A stretch of DNA of 64,000 nt from Bartonella taylorii 8TBB (GTDB lineage Bacteria > Pseudomonadota > Alphaproteobacteria > Rhizobiales > Rhizobiaceae): contig NZ_CADEAG010000003.1 of assembly GCF_902825155.1 (NCBI RefSeq), forward strand, positions 1 to 64,000, in the 5' to 3' direction. Shown here one piece after another: positions 792-46,740 of the stretch. Below the pieces are notes generated by a model, which worked only from the letters and a program-made list of their open reading frames with translations, ran no database searches and was not told the DNA's origin. The translations under genes and the position numbers were made by a program. Positions within the stretch are counted from its first letter, which is position 1; each line of letters begins with the position of its first letter.

Positions 792-1622
792 ATGAAAGAA
801 AAAATATCGCAAAATTCTCATTATGCTCGTTTACGTCGCCGATATCGCGATACAAAAAGCTTTTCTTCTCGTTCTGCCTCATGCCTGAAAAAAGCAGCTT
901 CACCATTACAACAAGGAACAATCCGTCTTTATGGTATCCACGCAGTTCATGCTGCTTTAAAAAATCCAAAAAGAATTTTTAACGGTCTCTATGTTACATC
1001 AAACGCCTTAAAACGATTAAATATACCCGAATCAGATTTACCTTGTGCTGTTACATTATGCTCACCAAAACAACTTGATGCATTGGTTGGAAGTGATGCA
1101 GTGCATCAAGGTATTGTTGTGGAAACTACCCCCCTCAAACCATGTCAATTGTCTGAACTTACCAATACTGATCTTGTCATCGTAATGGATCAAATTACCG
1201 ATCCACATAATGTCGGTGCTATTATGCGCTCCGCAGTTGCATTTAAAGCTGAAGCTCTCATCACCACATGTCGCCACTCCCCACAAGAAAGCGGTGTTCT
1301 CGCTAAAGCCGCTTCCGGAGCGTTGGAGCTGATTAATTATATTACTGTACGAAACCTCGCCGAAACACTCCACGAACTTCATAAAGCAGGTTTCATCAGC
1401 TTTGGACTCGATTCAGAAGGTGAATACCCTCTAGAAACAGCATTAACAGGGAGGAAAATTGCCCTTATTTTAGGAGCAGAAGGAAAAGGCTTACGTAAAA
1501 AAACACGGGAAACCGTTTGCGCATTAACACGCCTTGATATGCCTGGAAATATTAAATCATTAAATGTTTCAAACGCGGCCACAATAGCACTTTATGCGGC
1601 GCATAAATATCTTAGATCGTAG
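792..1622 (+). CDS. rlmB: 23S rRNA 2'-O-ribose methyltransferase, TrmH/SpoU family (RlmB-like)
   Basis: SAM-dependent 2'-O-methyltransferase of the SpoU family; RlmB methylates a guanosine in 23S rRNA. The 276-residue product has a basic N-terminal tail, a substrate-binding domain beginning around YGIHAVHAAL, and the C-terminal knotted SPOUT fold. All three SpoU motifs are visible: NVGAIMRSA, ALILGAEGKGL and LNVSNAATIALY. The frame is open upstream to 741, but the ATG at 792 gives the usual basic N-terminus and has an AAAGAG purine stretch about 10 nt before it. The 3' end overlaps the convergent rhomboid gene by 11 bp. The exact rRNA target is assumed from the family; another TrmH-type target is possible. 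Confidence 0.88.
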   Translation: MKEKISQNSHYARLRRRYRDTKSFSSRSASCLKKAASPLQQGTIRLYGIHAVHAALKNPKRIFNGLYVTSNALKRLNIPESDLPCAVTLCSPKQLDALVGSDAVHQGIVVETTPLKPCQLSELTNTDLVIVMDQITDPHNVGAIMRSAVAFKAEALITTCRHSPQESGVLAKAASGALELINYITVRNLAETLHELHKAGFISFGLDSEGEYPLETALTGRKIALILGAEGKGLRKKTRETVCALTRLDMPGNIKSLNVSNAATIALYAAHKYLRS

Positions 1623-2367
1623 TTTGTAATTTTTTTCGCGAAATATCAAAAAAACCAATCAACAAAAAGCCTGAAAAGAAACCACCAATATGAGCCTCCC
1701 ATGCTATTGAAACACCATCTCCTTCAAAGAGAAGAGATGAAATACCTATAATAAAATCAACACTCAGCCAGATACTCAGGTAAATAAGCACACTCCTTGA
1801 ACACAGCGCTTTTTTAATAGACAATAAAGGGCTTAAAAATCTTTTATTCTGCGTCGTAGCCTCCAAATAGCTCAAAAGGAAATCATAACGTGCAATAGCG
1901 CCCATCATTCCAGACACTGCGCCCGACGCACCGACAAGTGATATTGCACTCTCTTGGTGAAATACAAAATAAGTCAAAACAGCTATAATAGCTGTTAATA
2001 CCCAAAAAATTAAAAAACGAAAACCACCAATATGTCTTACCAAAGGAGACCCAAAAACCAAAAGCCAAGCCATGTTAATAGCAACATGTTTAAAACTACT
2101 ATGCATAAAGGAATAACTAATAATCGTATAACAAAATGCTAAAGGTTCAGTCTTAAATAACACTGGTGTAAATGCAAATAAATCAAGACTTTCAATATAG
2201 AATTGATCAGAAAAAAGGTATTGAGAAACAAAATAAATACAAAAACAAAGTGCTATCAAAACAACTATAATAAATGGAATATTCAATAATGGTTCTTTAG
2301 GCTGCTCTGGAAAAAACGATCTATTATTATATTGGTGTTTGGCATTTTTCATTGTATAAAATCTCAT
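1612..2367 (-). CDS. Rhomboid family intramembrane serine protease
   Basis: Polytopic inner-membrane protein of 251 residues that would cleave transmembrane helices within the bilayer. After a short cytoplasmic N-terminus the first hydrophobic helix (IPFIIVVLIALCFCIYFV) is followed by about five more. The catalytic serine motif appears as VGASGAVSGMMGA (GxSG) and the catalytic histidine as AHIGGFFSGF in the last helix. The conserved asparagine/histidine region reads HVAINMAWL. A second ATG six codons downstream (2352) is an alternative start. It is convergent with rlmB. Substrates cannot be inferred. Confidence 0.88.
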   Translation of the reverse strand: MRFYTMKNAKHQYNNRSFFPEQPKEPLLNIPFIIVVLIALCFCIYFVSQYLFSDQFYIESLDLFAFTPVLFKTEPLAFCYTIISYSFMHSSFKHVAINMAWLLVFGSPLVRHIGGFRFLIFWVLTAIIAVLTYFVFHQESAISLVGASGAVSGMMGAIARYDFLLSYLEATTQNKRFLSPLLSIKKALCSRSVLIYLSIWLSVDFIIGISSLLFEGDGVSIAWEAHIGGFFSGFLLIGFFDISRKKLQTTI

Positions 2368-2603
2368 ACTTTCTTTAGAATTGACAGTGCTTTACAGTTT
2401 GGTAATTTAATAGTTGGCTTTTTATGAAAACCATCATAAATGTACAATAACCAATATGCCTTTTAAATACGCAAATAAAAACATCACTGCCCCTTTCTTC
2501 AGCATCTAATCACTCTCGTTTTAAAGTTTTCTTTAGCCTCTTAGGGGAGAATTATAAAATAAACAAAGAGAATGTTTTATTTCAATACATCATTTGTAAA
2601 AAA

Positions 2604-3038
2604 TCATTGATGGGCTTGATTCTGAGAATCTTTTTTGCCTTGTTTGCAGTCTTTTAACCACACATCGTAGATAGGATGCTCTACAGCATTCAAGCCAGGG
2701 CTATCTGCAAACATCCACCCTATAAAAATACGTCGTACTTTTTTATCTAATGTAATTTCATTGACTTCAATAAAACCGGTTGTACGCGTTGGTTCATCCT
2801 TAGAGCTCGTATAACACGCGCGCGGCGTTACCTGCAAAGCACCATATCGATAAACTTCACCAAGAGAAACTTCAAAACGCGTAGTCCGACCAGTAATTTT
2901 ATCGAGACCTGAAAAAACAGCAATTCCATTGCTCACACGCTCAGCCTGTACTCCAACAACTGAAAACAAAAATATTACAACTTCTATGAGAAAAAGACAA
3001 AAAAAACGCTTCAATCCTAACAGTAAAAAAGCTCTCAT
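2604..3038 (-). CDS. DUF2155 domain-containing secreted protein
   Basis: Function unknown. The protein has about 144 residues, with a strongly hydrophobic N-terminal segment (FLIEVVIFLFSVVGVQA) that looks like a signal peptide cleaved near VQA-ER. The mature part carries the DUF2155 core: ITGRTTRFEV, YRYGALQVTPRACY and IGWMFADSPGLNA, ending DVWLKDC. The ATG at 3038 follows a GTG codon that could also start translation. It lies 80 bp downstream of the NDUFA12-like gene on the same strand; the two are commonly neighbours in Hyphomicrobiales, so an operon is likely. The role is probably periplasmic, inferred only from the signal peptide. Confidence 0.85.
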   Translation of the reverse strand: MRAFLLLGLKRFFCLFLIEVVIFLFSVVGVQAERVSNGIAVFSGLDKITGRTTRFEVSLGEVYRYGALQVTPRACYTSSKDEPTRTTGFIEVNEITLDKKVRRIFIGWMFADSPGLNAVEHPIYDVWLKDCKQGKKDSQNQAHQ

Positions 3039-3119
3039 CACATCAAATCAATCACATCTAAAAATTCTATTTATAAAATAGTACACATAAGAAAAAACAC
3101 ACGCACGCATCAAAACATC

Positions 3120-3518
3120 TTATTTTTTAGGCGACCATGCATCATAATCTTTATACAAAAAAGGACGATCATCACTGTAAGAAATAGCACCCTTCGGACG
3201 ATAGGCATCGCTTGTTCCTGTCATATTGGCAATGTGAGGCTTTTCCCATTCATAGGGCTGATAATCTTCCTGTGTTGGAGGGATATCACAGCGATGATGA
3301 ATCCAACCATGCCAACCTGGTGGAATGGTAGAAGCTTCAGAATAATCTTTATAAATGACCCAACGGCGCGGATAACCATCCTTATGAGTGCCCCCTTCAT
3401 AATAAACATTCCCAAACTGATCTTCCCCCATACGTTTACCTTTACGCCACGTAAAAAAGCGCGTATTTATGGTATTACCATTCCACCATGTAAAGATTTG
3501 CTTTAAAAAAATAGCCAT
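3120..3518 (-). CDS. NADH:ubiquinone oxidoreductase accessory subunit, NDUFA12/B17.2 family
   Basis: Accessory subunit of respiratory complex I found in mitochondria and alphaproteobacteria. It binds the peripheral arm and is not itself a redox protein. The 132-residue product shows the family pattern: RMGEDQFGNVYYEGG near residues 30-44, then RRWVIYKDYSEASTIPPGWHGWIHH, and a C-terminal region ending RPFLYKDYDAWSP. No cysteines bind metals and no signal peptide is present, as expected for a matrix/cytoplasm-side subunit. The ATG at 3518 gives the usual short N-terminus. Assignment is firm at family level. Confidence 0.92.
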   Translation of the reverse strand: MAIFLKQIFTWWNGNTINTRFFTWRKGKRMGEDQFGNVYYEGGTHKDGYPRRWVIYKDYSEASTIPPGWHGWIHHRCDIPPTQEDYQPYEWEKPHIANMTGTSDAYRPKGAISYSDDRPFLYKDYDAWSPKK

Positions 3519-3670
3519 CTTTTAGTCCATCTCTCTAAGTACCCTTGGGAAGTTAATCCTTAACAAAACTCCGCCCGTAAAGTCAATTATGTCTCCATTC
3601 GGTAAGCTTAGTTGTATTCCTCAATTATAAGAAATATCATATTTATGGACTTTCCTCTACCCCATAAAAC

Positions 3671-5300: not shown

Positions 5301-6725
5301 TTAATCTTTTTTAGGTGCCTTTTTCTTAGATGGAACTTTTTCTACGGTTTTTTTTACTGCAGATTTTTTCTTCTCTGGCTTTTTTTCTATTAAATCTGTT
5401 TCGTCATATTCCTTCATCAGCTCTTCAACCGTAACTTCTTTATCTGTGATTTTTATCCGTGCTAGCAAATGATCAATGACTTTCTCTTCAAAAATTGGGG
5501 CACGTAGATTTGCAACAGCTTCTGGAGTCTTACGGAAAAAATCCATAATCTCTTTTTCTTGTCCAGGATACTGACGCACCTGATCAAAAACTGCTGCTTT
5601 TAGCTCATCCTCACTTACTTTAACACCAACCTTCATTCCAATTTCAGAAAGCACTAAACCAAGACGAACACGACGCTGTGCAAGCACACGATATTCCTCC
5701 CGTGCCTGCTCCTCTGTAACACCTTCATCTTCAAAACTGCGACCAGCCTTTTTTAAATCGTCATTAACCTGAGCCCATATATTGTTAAATTCAATTTCTA
5801 AAAGTCCTTCAGGAATCTCAAAATCGTAATCAGCATCTAAAGCATCAAGAATTTGACGCTTAATTTTTTGACGTGTCATTGAACCATATTGATTTTCAAT
5901 CTGCCCACGAACAACTTCACGTAAGCGATCTAGAGATTCTAAACCAACTTTCCGCGCTGCTTCATCATCAATCTTTAATTCATCCGGTTTAGAGATAGCC
6001 TTAACAGTGATATCAAACTCTGCATCCCGACCCGCCAAATGCACTGCATTGTAATTATCAGGAAATTTAACAGAAATTGTTTTCGTATCACCTACTTTCA
6101 CACCAACCAACTGCTCCTCAAAGCCAGGAATAAATTGCTTTGATCCGAGAATCAGTTGCGCATCACTCTCTGTTCCACCCTCAAATGGCTCTCCCTCAAG
6201 TTTACCAAGATAATCTATTGTAACACGATCACCTTCTTCAGAAAAACCATCTTTTAGTGAATAATTCCGCGTGGAAGAAAGGACGCGCCTTACTTGATCA
6301 TCAATCTCTTGTTCAGGAATAATTGCAATTTCACGAGTAATTTCAATATGTTCAAAGTCTTTAATTTCAAATTTTGGCAAAACTTCATACTTTAAACTAA
6401 AAACAAAATCGGTTTTGCCATCCAGAATTTGTTCATCTTCATTTATATCAATTTGCGGCTGCATCGCTGAACGTTCATTACGATCAGCTAAAACAGAATG
6501 GGGTACATCACTGATAATCTCATTGAGAATTTCTGCCATAAAAGACTTGCCGTACATTTTTCTTAGATATCCAGCAGGTACCTTACCAGGACGAAAACCC
6601 TTAAGCTTGATCTTGCCCTTGGTATCATCCAACCGTTCATTCAATTTTTTTTCTAAATCTCTCGCCGGAACCACGATCTTAATTTCGCGCTTCAGTCCTT
6701 CATTAAGCGTCTCGGTAACCTGCAT
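5301..6725 (-). CDS. tig: Trigger factor, ribosome-associated chaperone
   Basis: Trigger factor binds the ribosomal exit tunnel and shields nascent chains; it has peptidyl-prolyl isomerase activity. The 474-residue protein shows the ribosome-docking signature [17 protein letters not shown] at about residues 43-59, an FKBP-type domain ([18 protein letters not shown], about 166-250) and a long helical C-terminal chaperone domain. It ends in a lysine-rich tail ([16 protein letters not shown]...) that may be unstructured. Start [10 protein letters not shown] is canonical. An ORF on the opposite strand at 6415-6786 is a shadow of this gene. Confidence 0.97.
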
Positions 6726-42124: not shown

Positions 42125-42373
42125 CTAATAAGTTATTTTTTGAATATAATCTTTAGTGCATTTCTTCCAATACTGCTGTCTTATTATATTAAACTTGTCT
42201 TTATCAATATCAGATCCTATTATGTTGCGATTAATATAAATAACAAAACTATGTTTGTGATGAGTCTCTTTGGTAACCTCTGCCATGGAACTCGTTTGCG
42301 TTTGTAACGCGTAGATGTGACTTGATGGAAACACCTTCATGTCAAGAGATGTTATTTGTTGTCTTTTTTCCAA
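42125..42373 (-). CDS. Small protein, paralogue of the 46.5 kb gene
   Basis: Unrecognised 82-residue frame. Its middle, LQTQTSSMAEVTKETHHKHSFVIYINRN followed by DIDKDKFNI, aligns with the small frame at 46537-46740 (LLIQASPIAEVSQSFHQKYTSVIHIYPK, LIDRDMFER). Shared positions are A-E-V, H-x-K, S-V/F-I-h-I and D-x-D-x-F. That two diverged copies keep the same frame suggests a real, perhaps truncated, protein. It lies 47 bp after the stop of the four-repeat gene on the same strand. Function unknown. Confidence 0.4.
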   Translation of the reverse strand: MEKRQQITSLDMKVFPSSHIYALQTQTSSMAEVTKETHHKHSFVIYINRNIIGSDIDKDKFNIIRQQYWKKCTKDYIQKITY

Positions 42374-42420: not shown

Positions 42421-45120
42421 CTAATTAGTTAGAAAATTCTTTGCTATCTCCTCAATCAAAGCGTAGCTGAGTTGCTTCACCTTTGCTATTTCTTTTGCCA
42501 AAACCACTGCGCATTCAAGATGAATCTGGTGAATGCTCTCGTCAAAGCCTAAATGATCACCCCCTCCAAAACTTCTGTGATAAAATTGTAAGGTTTCAAC
42601 ATCACCCAATAAAGCCAGTGCACCAATATGAAGTAAGCCATAATGTACATCATCCGTCTCACTGGTTTTGCTCGTTTTCCAAGGTGGTATACCATACCTA
42701 CAACGAAATAATCTATGAATATCAATATTTTCCATTGCCCACTCCAAAGTATCATCAAGCTCTAACTCTAAGCGGCTCGCACTGATCTTTTCTTCGACAA
42801 TTTTCAAACCTTTTTTATTAAAATAAAGCTGTAGATCTGGCAAATTTTGAGAATTTATGGGATCAATTGTCCTACAAATAGAGGAAAGAATACCCGTAGT
42901 AATCGAGAATCCAATATCAAATTCCGGACAATCTTTCGTGATTTCATCATTGTAAAGAATTTGTACCTCGCGATCTGGCAATTGATAGATTGCCAAAAGG
43001 TTTTCTTTTCCCTCTATTCCATGAACCAACCAGCCTAAGCTTTTAAAAAGTGCTATTGTGCTCTCCATAGTTAAGAAAGTCTCTTCTTTGGCTTTAAGAG
43101 GTACTGTTTCAGAATCAAAGGTTAAAAGTGAAGCGGATTTCAACAAACCTAAACGATAACGTCGTGTAAGAGTAAGAACACGATTAACGAGATCTTTTGT
43201 GATTTCCACCGCAAAACCTAAATGATCTCCTGTTCTAAAACTCTCTTTATAAAATTTGAGCTTTTTAGTATCTCCAATAAGCACAAGTGCTATAAGATGG
43301 CGCTCAACAAGTTCAATATCACTGTCTGTAGGTAAAGCAGCATAATCAGAGATGACTTGTTGCACATTTTGTTGATGAGCCCAGTTCAAAATACATTCAC
43401 AGATCTGCTTCAGTTTGCTTTCATCTATAGAAATATATGATACAGTATATATATCTTCTGCCTCTTTGATTGATGTATATTGAGATCTTGTAGGAAAAAT
43501 ATCCCGATAAGCGGTAGAGAAACTTAGTGTTGAAAGCGACGCCTTAAATATGATAATCGGCTTTTTCCCTTTAGTGTCAGAGTGATACACTATGTTAATG
43601 AGACGGTCTTTGCCTATAAAATAAGCATTATAGTTGCATTCTTTATCGCAATAGATTGTCCAACCCATCGTTTCTAATTGTTCTGTAATTGTGTTGAGGA
43701 CAACTAAATCTTGTGACCCTATACGCACACCCTCCACCTTTTGTTCACTCTGACTTTTTATCGTCCACAACCGTAGCACACTCAAAATAGATCCCATTGG
43801 TGCTTTTGTCCAAATCCAGCTGTTCACGTGTAAAAATGCTTTAGTTATAGGAAAAAAAGGCTTTATCATCATCTGATGAAGCAAAGACGATGACATGAAA
43901 TAAGATATTATACGCTGTCTTAAATTTGCTTTTTTGCGAGAATAACTTACCGTAAGGTGCTCTTCAGCAAATTCAACAGCGCGATCAACACAACTGAACA
44001 TAGAGCGGTCTGTAGAATATTGAGCAATTTTGTCTGAAGCAAGAGTATTTTGATAAGATTTTAGTGCTTCAATTTTACCTGTCAACGCTAAGCAAGCTAA
44101 ATGCCAGATCATATTTTGGCAAGAGCTAGAGGCCTGGAGATATGTTTGAATAGGTGCTCTGCTTTTTAGCTCTGCTTCAAAATTCTGGGCACGTGCCCAT
44201 TGTATCACCCGCTCGGAAATTTTGATGAGTTCTCGCTCGGTAAGCGTATCAAGACAAATATTAAGACCATTTCCAAGGCTGTTAAAAGTTTGATAAATAT
44301 TCTCAGGTCGTATGAATCTGTAGTCTCGGCCATAATGAATATAACGGCAAGCCCTAGAAATCTCTTCTGTAGACGTTATAGCATTAATATAGATATTTTG
44401 CTTATCATTGAGATTCCATAACCTAAAATGAAATTTAACGAAGCGATCAGGCAAAGCTAACCACATTTTGCCAGGTTCCTTTGCAAACCAACCATGACTC
44501 TTAAAAATATTGGTTGCAGCTGTTAAGCTCATTAGTTGTTTTTGAGGCATTTTGCGTGCCAGAATATCATCCAATTCCCTATTTTTATAGGCTCGCGCAA
44601 AAAGAAGGATACGTTCAACCCATGTTGTTGTTTTATAATCAGAAAATTCTGGTACATCCAATTTTGGAGTAGGCTTATAACTCTTTAAAGTCTCTATATC
44701 GCCGAGCACAGCCTTTGCAATAGTGGAACTCTTGGCAGAACCATTGGTAGCTTCCTGATATAATTTTTGTTCAATATCTTGTGTTTTTGCCCACGCGATT
44801 ACTTTGTCTAAAGATGCCTCGATACGACTTTGAGAAAGATCTCGAATTTTGACATCGAACACCCTATTTTTGGAAAATAGGGAACTTTCAGAAGAAAATT
44901 TCTGACCTCTAACATATTCCCAAGCAAGGAAATAGGGAAAAATGGTGAGATTTGCTTCAAGAATAAGCTTTCTATCTCTCCATTCATACTTGACCTCGTA
45001 ACCAATATCCACAAAGCGATCAGATAAATCATAACAAGCATGATGATTACCAATATCATCACGATATAGCATCCAACCAAGTTTTTTTAAAATTTTTGTT
45101 ACGTCTTTGGTCTGCATCAT
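42421..45120 (-). CDS. Large cytoplasmic protein of four divergent ~190-residue repeats, function unknown
   Basis: I do not recognise the family. The 899-residue product has no signal peptide and consists of four tandem, diverged copies of one domain, roughly residues 1-185, 198-395, 472-660 and 685-890, with a more hydrophobic linker at about 400-455. Each copy follows one plan: a start like ILKKLGWMLY / IFKSHGWFAK / QLETMGWTIY / LFKSLGWLVH; then LPDRxV-type strand; then a helix with VIAWAKTQ / VIQWARAQ / ILNWAHQQ / TLEWAMEN; then a helix with GDIETLKSY / GKIEALKSY / GDTKKLKFY / GDVETLQFY; then a final helix ending in AR, AE, TR or AK. It neighbours a SUKH-like immunity gene, so a multi-domain immunity protein is one possibility. 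ATG at 45118-45120; 45115 is an alternative. Confidence 0.8.
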   Translation of the reverse strand: MMQTKDVTKILKKLGWMLYRDDIGNHHACYDLSDRFVDIGYEVKYEWRDRKLILEANLTIFPYFLAWEYVRGQKFSSESSLFSKNRVFDVKIRDLSQSRIEASLDKVIAWAKTQDIEQKLYQEATNGSAKSSTIAKAVLGDIETLKSYKPTPKLDVPEFSDYKTTTWVERILLFARAYKNRELDDILARKMPQKQLMSLTAATNIFKSHGWFAKEPGKMWLALPDRFVKFHFRLWNLNDKQNIYINAITSTEEISRACRYIHYGRDYRFIRPENIYQTFNSLGNGLNICLDTLTERELIKISERVIQWARAQNFEAELKSRAPIQTYLQASSSCQNMIWHLACLALTGKIEALKSYQNTLASDKIAQYSTDRSMFSCVDRAVEFAEEHLTVSYSRKKANLRQRIISYFMSSSLLHQMMIKPFFPITKAFLHVNSWIWTKAPMGSILSVLRLWTIKSQSEQKVEGVRIGSQDLVVLNTITEQLETMGWTIYCDKECNYNAYFIGKDRLINIVYHSDTKGKKPIIIFKASLSTLSFSTAYRDIFPTRSQYTSIKEAEDIYTVSYISIDESKLKQICECILNWAHQQNVQQVISDYAALPTDSDIELVERHLIALVLIGDTKKLKFYKESFRTGDHLGFAVEITKDLVNRVLTLTRRYRLGLLKSASLLTFDSETVPLKAKEETFLTMESTIALFKSLGWLVHGIEGKENLLAIYQLPDREVQILYNDEITKDCPEFDIGFSITTGILSSICRTIDPINSQNLPDLQLYFNKKGLKIVEEKISASRLELELDDTLEWAMENIDIHRLFRCRYGIPPWKTSKTSETDDVHYGLLHIGALALLGDVETLQFYHRSFGGGDHLGFDESIHQIHLECAVVLAKEIAKVKQLSYALIEEIAKNFLTN

Positions 45121-45217
45121 GATGCACTTCCACTCTCCAACGGACTAATTGATGGAAGAGTTCTTGCCGATTGATCTTCCCCCATTTCTTATTTAACTGC
45201 TTTTTCAGCGCAATATT

Positions 45218-45340
45218 TTAAAAAATTGTTGAGCTCTTTTTCACGTTTTTAAACTTTATGAAATCTTCATAATATTTATCCGCATGCTCCTTGTGTTTCC
45301 TTTTTTGTCTTAAAAACTGAATGAATAATAATAACTTTTG
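45218..45340 (-). pseudogene. Short gene remnant, possibly a toxin C-terminal fragment
   Basis: The minus strand carries an open stretch without a start that reads LRQKRKHKEHADKYYEDFIK, then FKNVKKSSTIF and a stop at 45218. The KHxxHAxKYYE pattern recalls C-terminal domains of some polymorphic toxins, but the match is short and from memory of the motif type only. It lies between the SUKH-like gene and the four-repeat gene. Confidence 0.2.
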
Positions 45341-45403: not shown

Positions 45404-45871
45404 TTATTCAAAATTAACCTTAATTCTTTTATATAAAAATTCATAAAAATTACTTGCGTAATAATATGAAGCTCCAGATGGGAATCTGAAATAGAGTGGG
45501 CATTCATCATCTCTAAATTGAGAATAATCAAAATAGAGTATCTCACAAAAAGTATTTTCACACACAATAAGCTGTTGTGGTCTAGCAAAACCTTTTTTTA
45601 TATCTGTTAAGTGGTTATAAACAATATCACCAGCAGGAATACAAGCAGCAGGATCACTTACACAATCCCAATAAACGGTCAATATTTCATCACAACCAAT
45701 TTCTGAAATTCCATAGTTTTTCAGAAAATTTTTGTAAGAAGATGTAAATTGTAAGCCGATAGTTTCTTCAGCCTTTTTAATCTGTATATCATCAATCGTT
45801 GGACCAAAATTAATATCGTCGCTATACTTATCAATTAATTTTTCCATGTCAGATAACATAAAATTTTTCAT
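45404..45871 (-). CDS. SMI1/KNR4 (SUKH) family protein, probable immunity protein
   Basis: The 155-residue product fits the SUKH superfamily, whose bacterial members mostly neutralise polymorphic or contact-dependent toxins. Typical pattern: an N-terminal helix with DIQIKKAEETIGLQFTSSYK and FLKNYG (I..AE..lg..lP..y..FL..yG), the strand CDEILTVYW, a central LIVCENTFCEILYFDYSQ and the C-terminal aromatic YYYASNFYEFLYKRI. GGGGGA stands 7 nt before the ATG at 45871. A decayed copy lies 150 bp upstream. No intact toxin gene is visible beside it, so it may be an orphan immunity gene. Confidence 0.78.
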   Translation of the reverse strand: MKNFMLSDMEKLIDKYSDDINFGPTIDDIQIKKAEETIGLQFTSSYKNFLKNYGISEIGCDEILTVYWDCVSDPAACIPAGDIVYNHLTDIKKGFARPQQLIVCENTFCEILYFDYSQFRDDECPLYFRFPSGASYYYASNFYEFLYKRIKVNFE

Positions 45872-46021
45872 GAATTATCCCCCATTAAATCACTATTCTT
45901 TATACGTTCTAGCTTGTTTCCGACAATAGCAATGTTAGTAATTAAAAAATAAGAGAAAAATGCCGGCTTAGTGTTTACACTTTGAAAATGAAAATATTAC
46001 ACAAAAAAATATCCTAGATTA

Positions 46022-46469
46022 TCCATAATCTTTTTACAGAGAAATTCATAACAATTACTTGCATAATAAAGGGGATCTCCAGATATTACCTCAAAATAGA
46101 GTGAGCATTCACCATCTTAACACTGAGAGTAATCAAAGTAAAATGTCTCACCAAAATCAGTTCTACTCACAACAAGCTGTTGTGGTTTTGCCAAACTATG
46201 TTTTATCTCTGTTAAGCGGTTATAAACAATATCAACACCATAAACAGTTTCAAAATCCACACTATAAATGCTAAAATTCTTTCAAACTAATTTCCCTTAC
46301 TCCGTAATTTTAAAAAAACTCTTATATGATGATGTGAATTGTAAATCTAAGGTTTCCTCAGCTTTCTTTATCCATATATCATCAGCTGCATCCTCTGCAG
46401 TTCCAAAGTTAATATATCACTATATTTGTCAACTAATTCTGCAACATCAGCTAAAGCTTAAGTTTTCAT
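46022..46469 (-). pseudogene. Decayed tandem copy of the SMI1/KNR4 gene
   Basis: The minus strand aligns along its whole length with the intact gene at 45404-45871 but has several stops and indels. Readable pieces: ELVDKYSD near the start, then KKAEETLDLQFTSSYKSFF, IVYNRLTEIKHSLAKPQQLV, TFYFDYSQ followed by a stop, DGECSLYFE and YYASNCYEFLCKKI. The fourth codon after ATG (46469) is already TAA. It is clearly non-functional and records a past duplication. Confidence 0.85.
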
Positions 46470-46536
46470 AATTTGTTCTCCATAAATTGTTGTTTTTTTA
46501 GTTCACCTTTCATTCTATAATCTTAGCGCGTTTCTT

Positions 46537-46740
46537 CTAATATTTAGGTATCCGCCTCTCAAACATATCTCTATCAATAAGTAATTTTTGTGTTTTAGGA
46601 TAAATATGAATAACCGAAGTATATTTTTGATGAAATGACTGGCTAACCTCTGCTATAGGACTAGCTTGTATTAGAAGCATGTGATGTAACAGATCTGCCA
46701 TGAGAGCCAACAGAAGCTCTTTTTGATAGGATTCTGCCAA
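46537..46740 (-). CDS. Small protein with TTG start, paralogue of the 42.1 kb frame
   Basis: A 67-residue frame starting at TTG (46738-46740) with AGGAG (46747-46751) 6 nt upstream. Sequence features: LLALMADLLHHMLLIQASPI, then AEVSQSFHQKYTSVIHIYPK and a tail LIDRDMFERRIPKY. It matches the frame at 42125-42373. It ends 67 bp before the decayed SUKH copy, the order expected of a small gene followed by its immunity gene, although nothing in it identifies a toxin activity. It could be a remnant of a larger gene. Confidence 0.4.
   Translation of the reverse strand: MAESYQKELLLALMADLLHHMLLIQASPIAEVSQSFHQKYTSVIHIYPKTQKLLIDRDMFERRIPKY

Follow-up and report, generated by a model that had tools for sequence, protein, structure and literature searches.

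The stretch of DNA analysed here (the window) comprises 64,000 nt of Bartonella taylorii 8TBB and carries, on its reverse strand, a gene for an 899-aa protein (positions 42421-45120, ATG start) set among toxin and immunity genes. In the direction of transcription, the decayed tail of an LHH nuclease toxin domain (46513..46686) comes first, then a decayed SUKH gene (46012..46469) and an intact SUKH immunity gene of 155 aa (45404..45871; PF14567, PF14568 and PF09346). Next is the decayed C-terminal tail of a second toxin domain, of predicted PD-(D/E)xK type and termed CT below (45152..45301), directly upstream of the gene for the 899-aa protein; downstream of that gene lies another LHH nuclease toxin domain remnant (42134..42352; PF14411, E 2.2e-7). 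All of these are on the same (-) strand. The intact SUKH gene and its decayed copy had been recognised in a preliminary description of the sequence, which also suggested that the 899-aa protein belongs to a conflict system; the loci of its relatives, which are polymorphic-toxin loci of the FhaB/CdiA type, support that suggestion.

The 899-aa protein was initially read as four diverged tandem repeats, and this reading is borne out. Pfam family PF22499 (DUF6990), an entry that carries no function, matches it over four stretches (E 8.8e-77, 257.6 bits), and each repeat singly exceeds the curated cut-off of 27 bits. The repeats, all encoded on the (-) strand, are D1 (44551..45120, residues about 1-190), D2 (43945..44547, residues about 192-392), D3 (43135..43725, residues about 466-662) and D4 (42433..43077, residues about 682-896). 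Their pairwise identity is 21-25%; profile-profile comparison relates them at a probability of 96.0-98.9% in six of six pairs, where column-shuffled profiles (10 shuffles per pair) reach a maximum of 2.8%. The motifs named at the outset are real as well: across 40 repeats the invariant residues are W in GW, DR in LPDR, W in WA, and both G and L in the G-(D/K)-xxx-L helix. In a tree of the repeats from 26 proteins, D1, D2 and D3 form one clade each and 19 D4 rows fall within a clade of 20 tips; because the repeats form position-specific clades, the four-repeat build probably predates the split of these versions. The dN/dS of the gene is 0.28-0.37 against 21 relatives, a rough value since dS is near 1.

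Between D2 and D3 lies an insertion of 65 residues (43729..43923 on the (-) strand, residues about 400-464) that is missing in 25 of 25 aligned relatives and is modelled with low confidence (pLDDT 25-43). We considered a mobile insertion as its origin and rejected this because its DNA has a single occurrence in the genome. Searches with the 899-aa protein gave no SUKH Pfam match at E up to 1, nothing above cut-off in NCBIfam, no match in PADLOC, and no meaningful match in a PDB sequence search with the full alignment (best E 0.31). A literature search found no paper naming DUF6990.

We found DUF6990 in 30 of 61 Bartonella genomes, and 15 of 15 loci from a scan of genome contigs came from this genus. 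In one of the FhaB/CdiA loci (L043), FhaB has TPS, DUF637, PT-VENN and an LHH nuclease C-terminus. In the relatives FhaB is succeeded by SUKH genes and these by the DUF6990 gene, behind which an orphan piece of LHH and a further SUKH gene are often found, and the window presents a worn version of this layout (LHH tail, decayed SUKH, intact SUKH, DUF6990 gene, LHH remnant). At two loci (L064 and L075) the region upstream of DUF6990 holds a C-terminal domain distinct from LHH, namely CT. One CT query gave 19 matches in 11 of the 61 Bartonella genomes; DUF6990 is present in all 11 genomes with CT, compared with 19 of the 50 others. A search of literature listings found no paper on FhaB toxin-immunity pairs in Bartonella; work on other Bartonella toxins exists (PMC5675462), and PMC4927057 mentions a B. 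henselae genomic island that carries cdi genes.

CT carries the signature RxD...(E/D)xKTG...QK, in which R, D, K, T, G, Q and K are invariant in 12 of 12 aligned sequences and which contains the D ... (D/E)xK ... Q of the PD-(D/E)xK group. No Pfam family scores above cut-off within CT. The CT profile matches the RhsA toxin domain of Pseudomonas protegens (PDB 7q97) at E 5e-4, over a shared PD-(D/E)xK stretch; a single Sinorhizobium meliloti CT sequence gives a non-significant E of 0.55 against the same entry. The RhsA domain, described as a predicted DNase (PMC8765631), is carried by an Rhs protein of a T6SS, whereas CT is carried by FhaB/CdiA. From these sequence features we predict that the partner toxin is a nuclease of the PD-(D/E)xK (restriction-endonuclease fold) type.

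Homologues of the 899-aa protein do lie beside toxin genes, a point that the preliminary description had proposed to check. Among 18 distinct CT copies that reach the C-terminus, 14 have a DUF6990 start next, at a downstream distance of 6-18 nt that includes the stop codon, and all 14 directly paired toxins belong to the one CT family. In the other four a second CT comes next, with a decayed DUF6990 start in between (by eye) that is clear at two loci (L075, L104) and badly worn at two others (L068, L097). SUKH comes next after LHH in 32 of 33 copies (8 within 60 nt, 24 at 72-295 nt), and the one further LHH copy runs past the end of the available stretch. The two partners segregate at a DUF6990:SUKH ratio of 14:0 after CT versus 0:32 after LHH, with no cross-pairing in the set (Fisher p 4e-12, assuming independent loci, which is not fully true). 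Only CT and LHH matches scoring 60 bits or more and ending within 25 residues of the query end entered this count, after deduplication by sequence. The SUKH neighbourhood had at first been taken as the context of the 899-aa protein, and SUKH is often found upstream of DUF6990, in some Bartonella copies without a recognisable CT; we nevertheless reject a SUKH-DUF6990 partnership, since SUKH genes come after the LHH toxin. Imm-SUKH with Tox-LHH, a pairing listed in PMC3482391, shares these loci but is an unrelated Pfam family with a different toxin partner.

The window retains a trace of the CT partner. Exactly between the SUKH gene and the DUF6990 gene, at 45152-45301 on the (-) strand, the CT profile scores higher (20.0 bits, i-E 1.2e-5) than anywhere else in the window's six frames; the next place scores 2.0 bits and five shuffles reach at most 6.2. 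A separate whole-genome search recovers the same remnant at E 2.6e-4. Because this tail remains beside it, the 899-aa gene was probably once paired with a toxin of its own that has since decayed. A CT query from L050 found no CT in the genome at E 0.001, and the other FhaB ORF of the genome (contig C5) matches none of CT, LHH and SUKH. We call the 899-aa protein an orphan because only the decayed CT tail was found, and no intact cdiA with a cognate toxin, in an assembly that consists of 236 contigs and may be incomplete.

The pairing extends beyond Bartonella. Single-repeat members of DUF6990 occur in Sinorhizobium, Pseudomonas and Fuscovulum. In a collection of 72,556 plasmid records, the window protein matched two, the S. 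meliloti DUF6990 protein five and the S. meliloti CT two, the last being Ak57 pSymB and USDA1021 psymB, both of S. meliloti. In both of these records CT is directly followed by a single-repeat DUF6990 gene: in Ak57 the two genes overlap by 4 nt, and in USDA1021 (L123) the CT stop is at 5962 and the next ATG at 5968. Against the Bartonella CT profile, the Ak57 CT scores 36.6 bits (i-E 6.7e-13) and the USDA1021 CT 15.5 bits (i-E 5e-4). The DUF6990 start in A. tumefaciens lies ~1.4 kb behind an FhaB-like gene, near an IS3 transposase, and P. aeruginosa has a DUF6990 gene together with an annotated cdiI on one record of 1.8 kb. By eye, short upstream tails in P. aeruginosa (L118) and A. tumefaciens (L124) resemble the end of the S. 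meliloti CT; the profiles missed them. The CT profiles found no CT for the DUF6990 genes of Fuscovulum or of two further genomes (G816 and G667), and in these two we saw no FhaB-like ORF beside DUF6990 (by eye; part of L120 is masked).

The distribution of the family is patchy. DUF6990 was found in one of 385 genomes of a class sample (B. taylorii 8TBB itself) and in three of 398 genomes of a phylum sample (itself, G816 and G667); in the same phylum sample, the S. meliloti DUF6990 protein found only G816, at 25% identity. The CT profile, applied to 297 genomes of the order, matched B. taylorii 8TBB only. Viral contigs yielded no CT relative, and the S. meliloti DUF6990 protein had no match among phages and only DpdK (E 0.036) in PADLOC.

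We consider it highly probable that the 899-aa protein is an immunity protein against a PD-(D/E)xK toxin of the contact-dependent inhibition (CDI, FhaB/CdiA) type. Points against it include the DUF6990 copies that lack a recognisable CT (SUKH-preceded ones in Bartonella, those of Fuscovulum, G816 and G667) and the group B proteins described below, most of which have just half a CT. The likeness to CdiI lies in the position of the relatives' genes directly downstream of a CdiA-type C-terminal toxin and on the same strand, in the exchange of part of the protein together with the toxin, and in the keeping of orphans. CdiI proteins are usually one small domain, whereas DUF6990 proteins are mostly about 820-900 aa with four repeats, of which the first is the best tracker of the toxin. 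Orphan CdiA-CT/CdiI modules have been described (PMC4927057).

The evidence that D1 tracks the toxin comes from co-divergence. We compared CT identities with the identities of each repeat over 13 Bartonella toxin-immunity pairs; the window gene is not among them, and L068, with its broken DUF6990, was left out. The correlation is strong for D1 (r 0.89, rising to 0.91 when its first 120 residues are taken; none of 2000 permutations reached this level), weaker for D2 (r 0.44; 1 of 2000 permutations), and r is 0.03 for D3 and -0.10 for D4. For the FhaB pre-toxin region ~280-890 nt upstream of CT, r is -0.03 over 12 loci, with L068 and L099 outside this control. Since D1 correlates so highly while the flanks further out on both sides do not, we conclude that toxin and D1 travel together. 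This is co-variation of the kind expected of a CdiI, with linkage as a possible cause: the correlation with the toxin declines along the gene (0.91, 0.67, 0.26-0.55, 0.03), which close linkage plus recombination would equally produce, and binding specificity of D1 is putative. The D1 sites that distinguish four toxin types are concentrated in strands and loops (37/66, versus 24/122 elsewhere; Fisher p 6e-7). On balance we favour D1 as the carrier of toxin specificity, and propose it as the toxin-binding part. The D1 of the window shares no more than 45-55% identity with any of the 13 D1s linked to a toxin, which puts the window's own toxin type outside the sampled set.

The preliminary description had proposed a multi-valent immunity protein. 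Immunity remains the most likely function, but polyimmunity in the strict sense, in which each of the four repeats would neutralise a different toxin, we judge unlikely. Polyimmunity proteins are polyvalent and are encoded in operons usually without toxin genes or cassettes (Zhang et al. 2012, PMC3482391); the tandem arrangement of immunity domains in one polypeptide is a known architecture, and the four repeats here, with their position-specific clades, resemble it, as does the in-frame fusion of SUKH to DUF6990 repeats at one locus (L044). Against this, DUF6990 has a cognate toxin as its direct neighbour: 14 relatives carry it upstream, and the window keeps a remnant of it. The toxin is tracked by D1, only weakly by D2, and not by D3 or D4; a single CT family accounts for every direct pair, and the single-repeat relatives in S. 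meliloti pair with that same family.

A different function is raised by the predicted structure. The full-length model is of moderate quality (mean pLDDT 65.9, pTM 0.31), and a model of D3 by itself, with the 40 repeats as alignment, reaches pLDDT 90.6 and pTM 0.83. In this model the N-terminal half of the repeat is alpha-beta(4)-alpha-beta-alpha, followed by a helical tail. Model residues 1-121 align in VIA with SycT (Z 8.8, rmsd 3.3, 92 aligned), and further matches of the single repeat include SchA, SycH, ExsC, CesT and SycE, the chaperones spanning Z 6-8.8, together with DR_1245 (8.0) and YbjN (6.8). The top VIA row is an unrelated Mediator chain (8ceo, Z 9.5), and Z values under 8 may reflect a common arrangement. 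Foldseek against the PDB gave no match at E 0.001 with either the full-length model or the single repeat. We therefore treat as a lead, resting on the model, that the N-terminal 120 residues of the repeat may share the fold of class I type III secretion chaperones (SycT, CesT, ExsC) and of YbjN; identities are 6-12% in the rows listed, and DUF6990 differs in adding a helical tail and in occurring in tandem in one chain.

This likeness, and the location of most toxin-type-specific sites in the sheet region, would also suit a chaperone that aids folding, holding or export of the toxin domain rather than conferring immunity. We regard such a role as very unlikely: the gene is intact where the toxin has decayed, a state more in keeping with immunity than with a dedicated chaperone, the gene order is that of the CdiA-CT/CdiI modules in PMC4927057, and the lower Z values carry the caveat just given. 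That an ordinary cellular protein sits in the locus by chance, as the copies lacking an adjacent toxin might suggest, is scarcely credible given the partner segregation (subject to the stated dependence among loci), the recurrence of the same toxin/DUF6990 pair in another genus and the patchy distribution.

If the 899-aa protein is an immunity protein, DUF6990 proteins would bind CT in the cytoplasm and block it, which would shield the cell against both the toxin it makes itself and sister cells. Repeat 1 would be the toxin-matched part, swapped together with the toxin, and repeats 3 and 4, and largely also repeat 2, would form a constant body. Toxin binding through the sheet seems likely because half of the modelled repeat resembles the class I chaperones, with a helical tail added. 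In the window, where the toxin has decayed to a tail and the immunity gene is open and constrained, the protein may give orphan protection against neighbours that still make the toxin. CDI-type toxin cassettes occur in many Bartonella genomes, and the immunity reading provides a Pfam family of unknown function with a testable role, and with a partner toxin named in two genera. It would also tie a chaperone-like fold, as modelled, to the likely neutralisation of a toxin, and it points to an uncommon way of gaining new immunity, in which one of four repeats, and not the whole protein, is changed with the toxin.

A set of single-repeat paralogues (group B), found in B. taylorii 8TBB and in other genomes, combines a hydrophobic N-terminus (by eye) with one DUF6990 repeat that is 45-55% identical to D4. 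Several of their genes stand in arrays with small hydrophobic proteins. Most of the proteins end in the first half of CT, with the cut close to the (D/E)xK position, and several have changes at that position; the CT profile matches 13 of 15 at E 1.3e-4 or better and one at 0.012, leaving one unmatched. We offer tentatively, as something short of an even chance, that repeat 1 may be a toxin-specific cartridge that can be exchanged while the further repeats stay as a constant, chaperone-like body, such that a new nuclease toxin could be acquired by swapping only the toxin and repeat 1, and that the same family also gave rise to these proteins of one immunity repeat plus the first half of the nuclease domain behind a hydrophobic N-terminus, which might serve as decoys bound to the membrane or as pre-loaded sentinels. 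Three single-repeat proteins from other genera show yet another affinity, their N-terminal half being closest to D1 and their C-terminal half closest to D3.

The 899-residue protein of four DUF6990 repeats carries, between repeats 2 and 3, an insertion of 65 residues (window 43729-43923, minus strand), which is partly hydrophobic, is present in one copy in its own genome, and was found in none of the 25 relatives compared.

Other builds of the repeat gene occur at related loci (L numbers). At L044 a single open reading frame (1334-3613) joins a SUKH immunity domain to three DUF6990 repeats in an in-frame fusion. Repeat 4 has its own reading frame, directly after that of repeats 1-3 and in some cases overlapping it, at L044, L049, L053, L054 and L055. 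Downstream of several DUF6990 loci, on the opposite strand, lie type ISP restriction-modification proteins, assigned by Pfam at L042 and L043 and by sequence cluster at L044, L046 and L048.

Contig C5 of the same genome carries another open frame of FhaB type, 2752 aa long (L112 599-8857), whose C-terminus is neither of the nuclease toxins LHH and PD-(D/E)xK; no SUKH or DUF6990 gene was found adjoining it.

Proteins with one DUF6990 repeat and an N-terminus that is hydrophobic as judged by eye (group B) occur at L057 (9905-14922), L060, L061, L063, L067, L072, L074 and L076, several of them arrayed with small hydrophobic proteins. Most of the one-repeat proteins at these eight loci are fusions that include the PD-(D/E)xK domain's N-terminal half.
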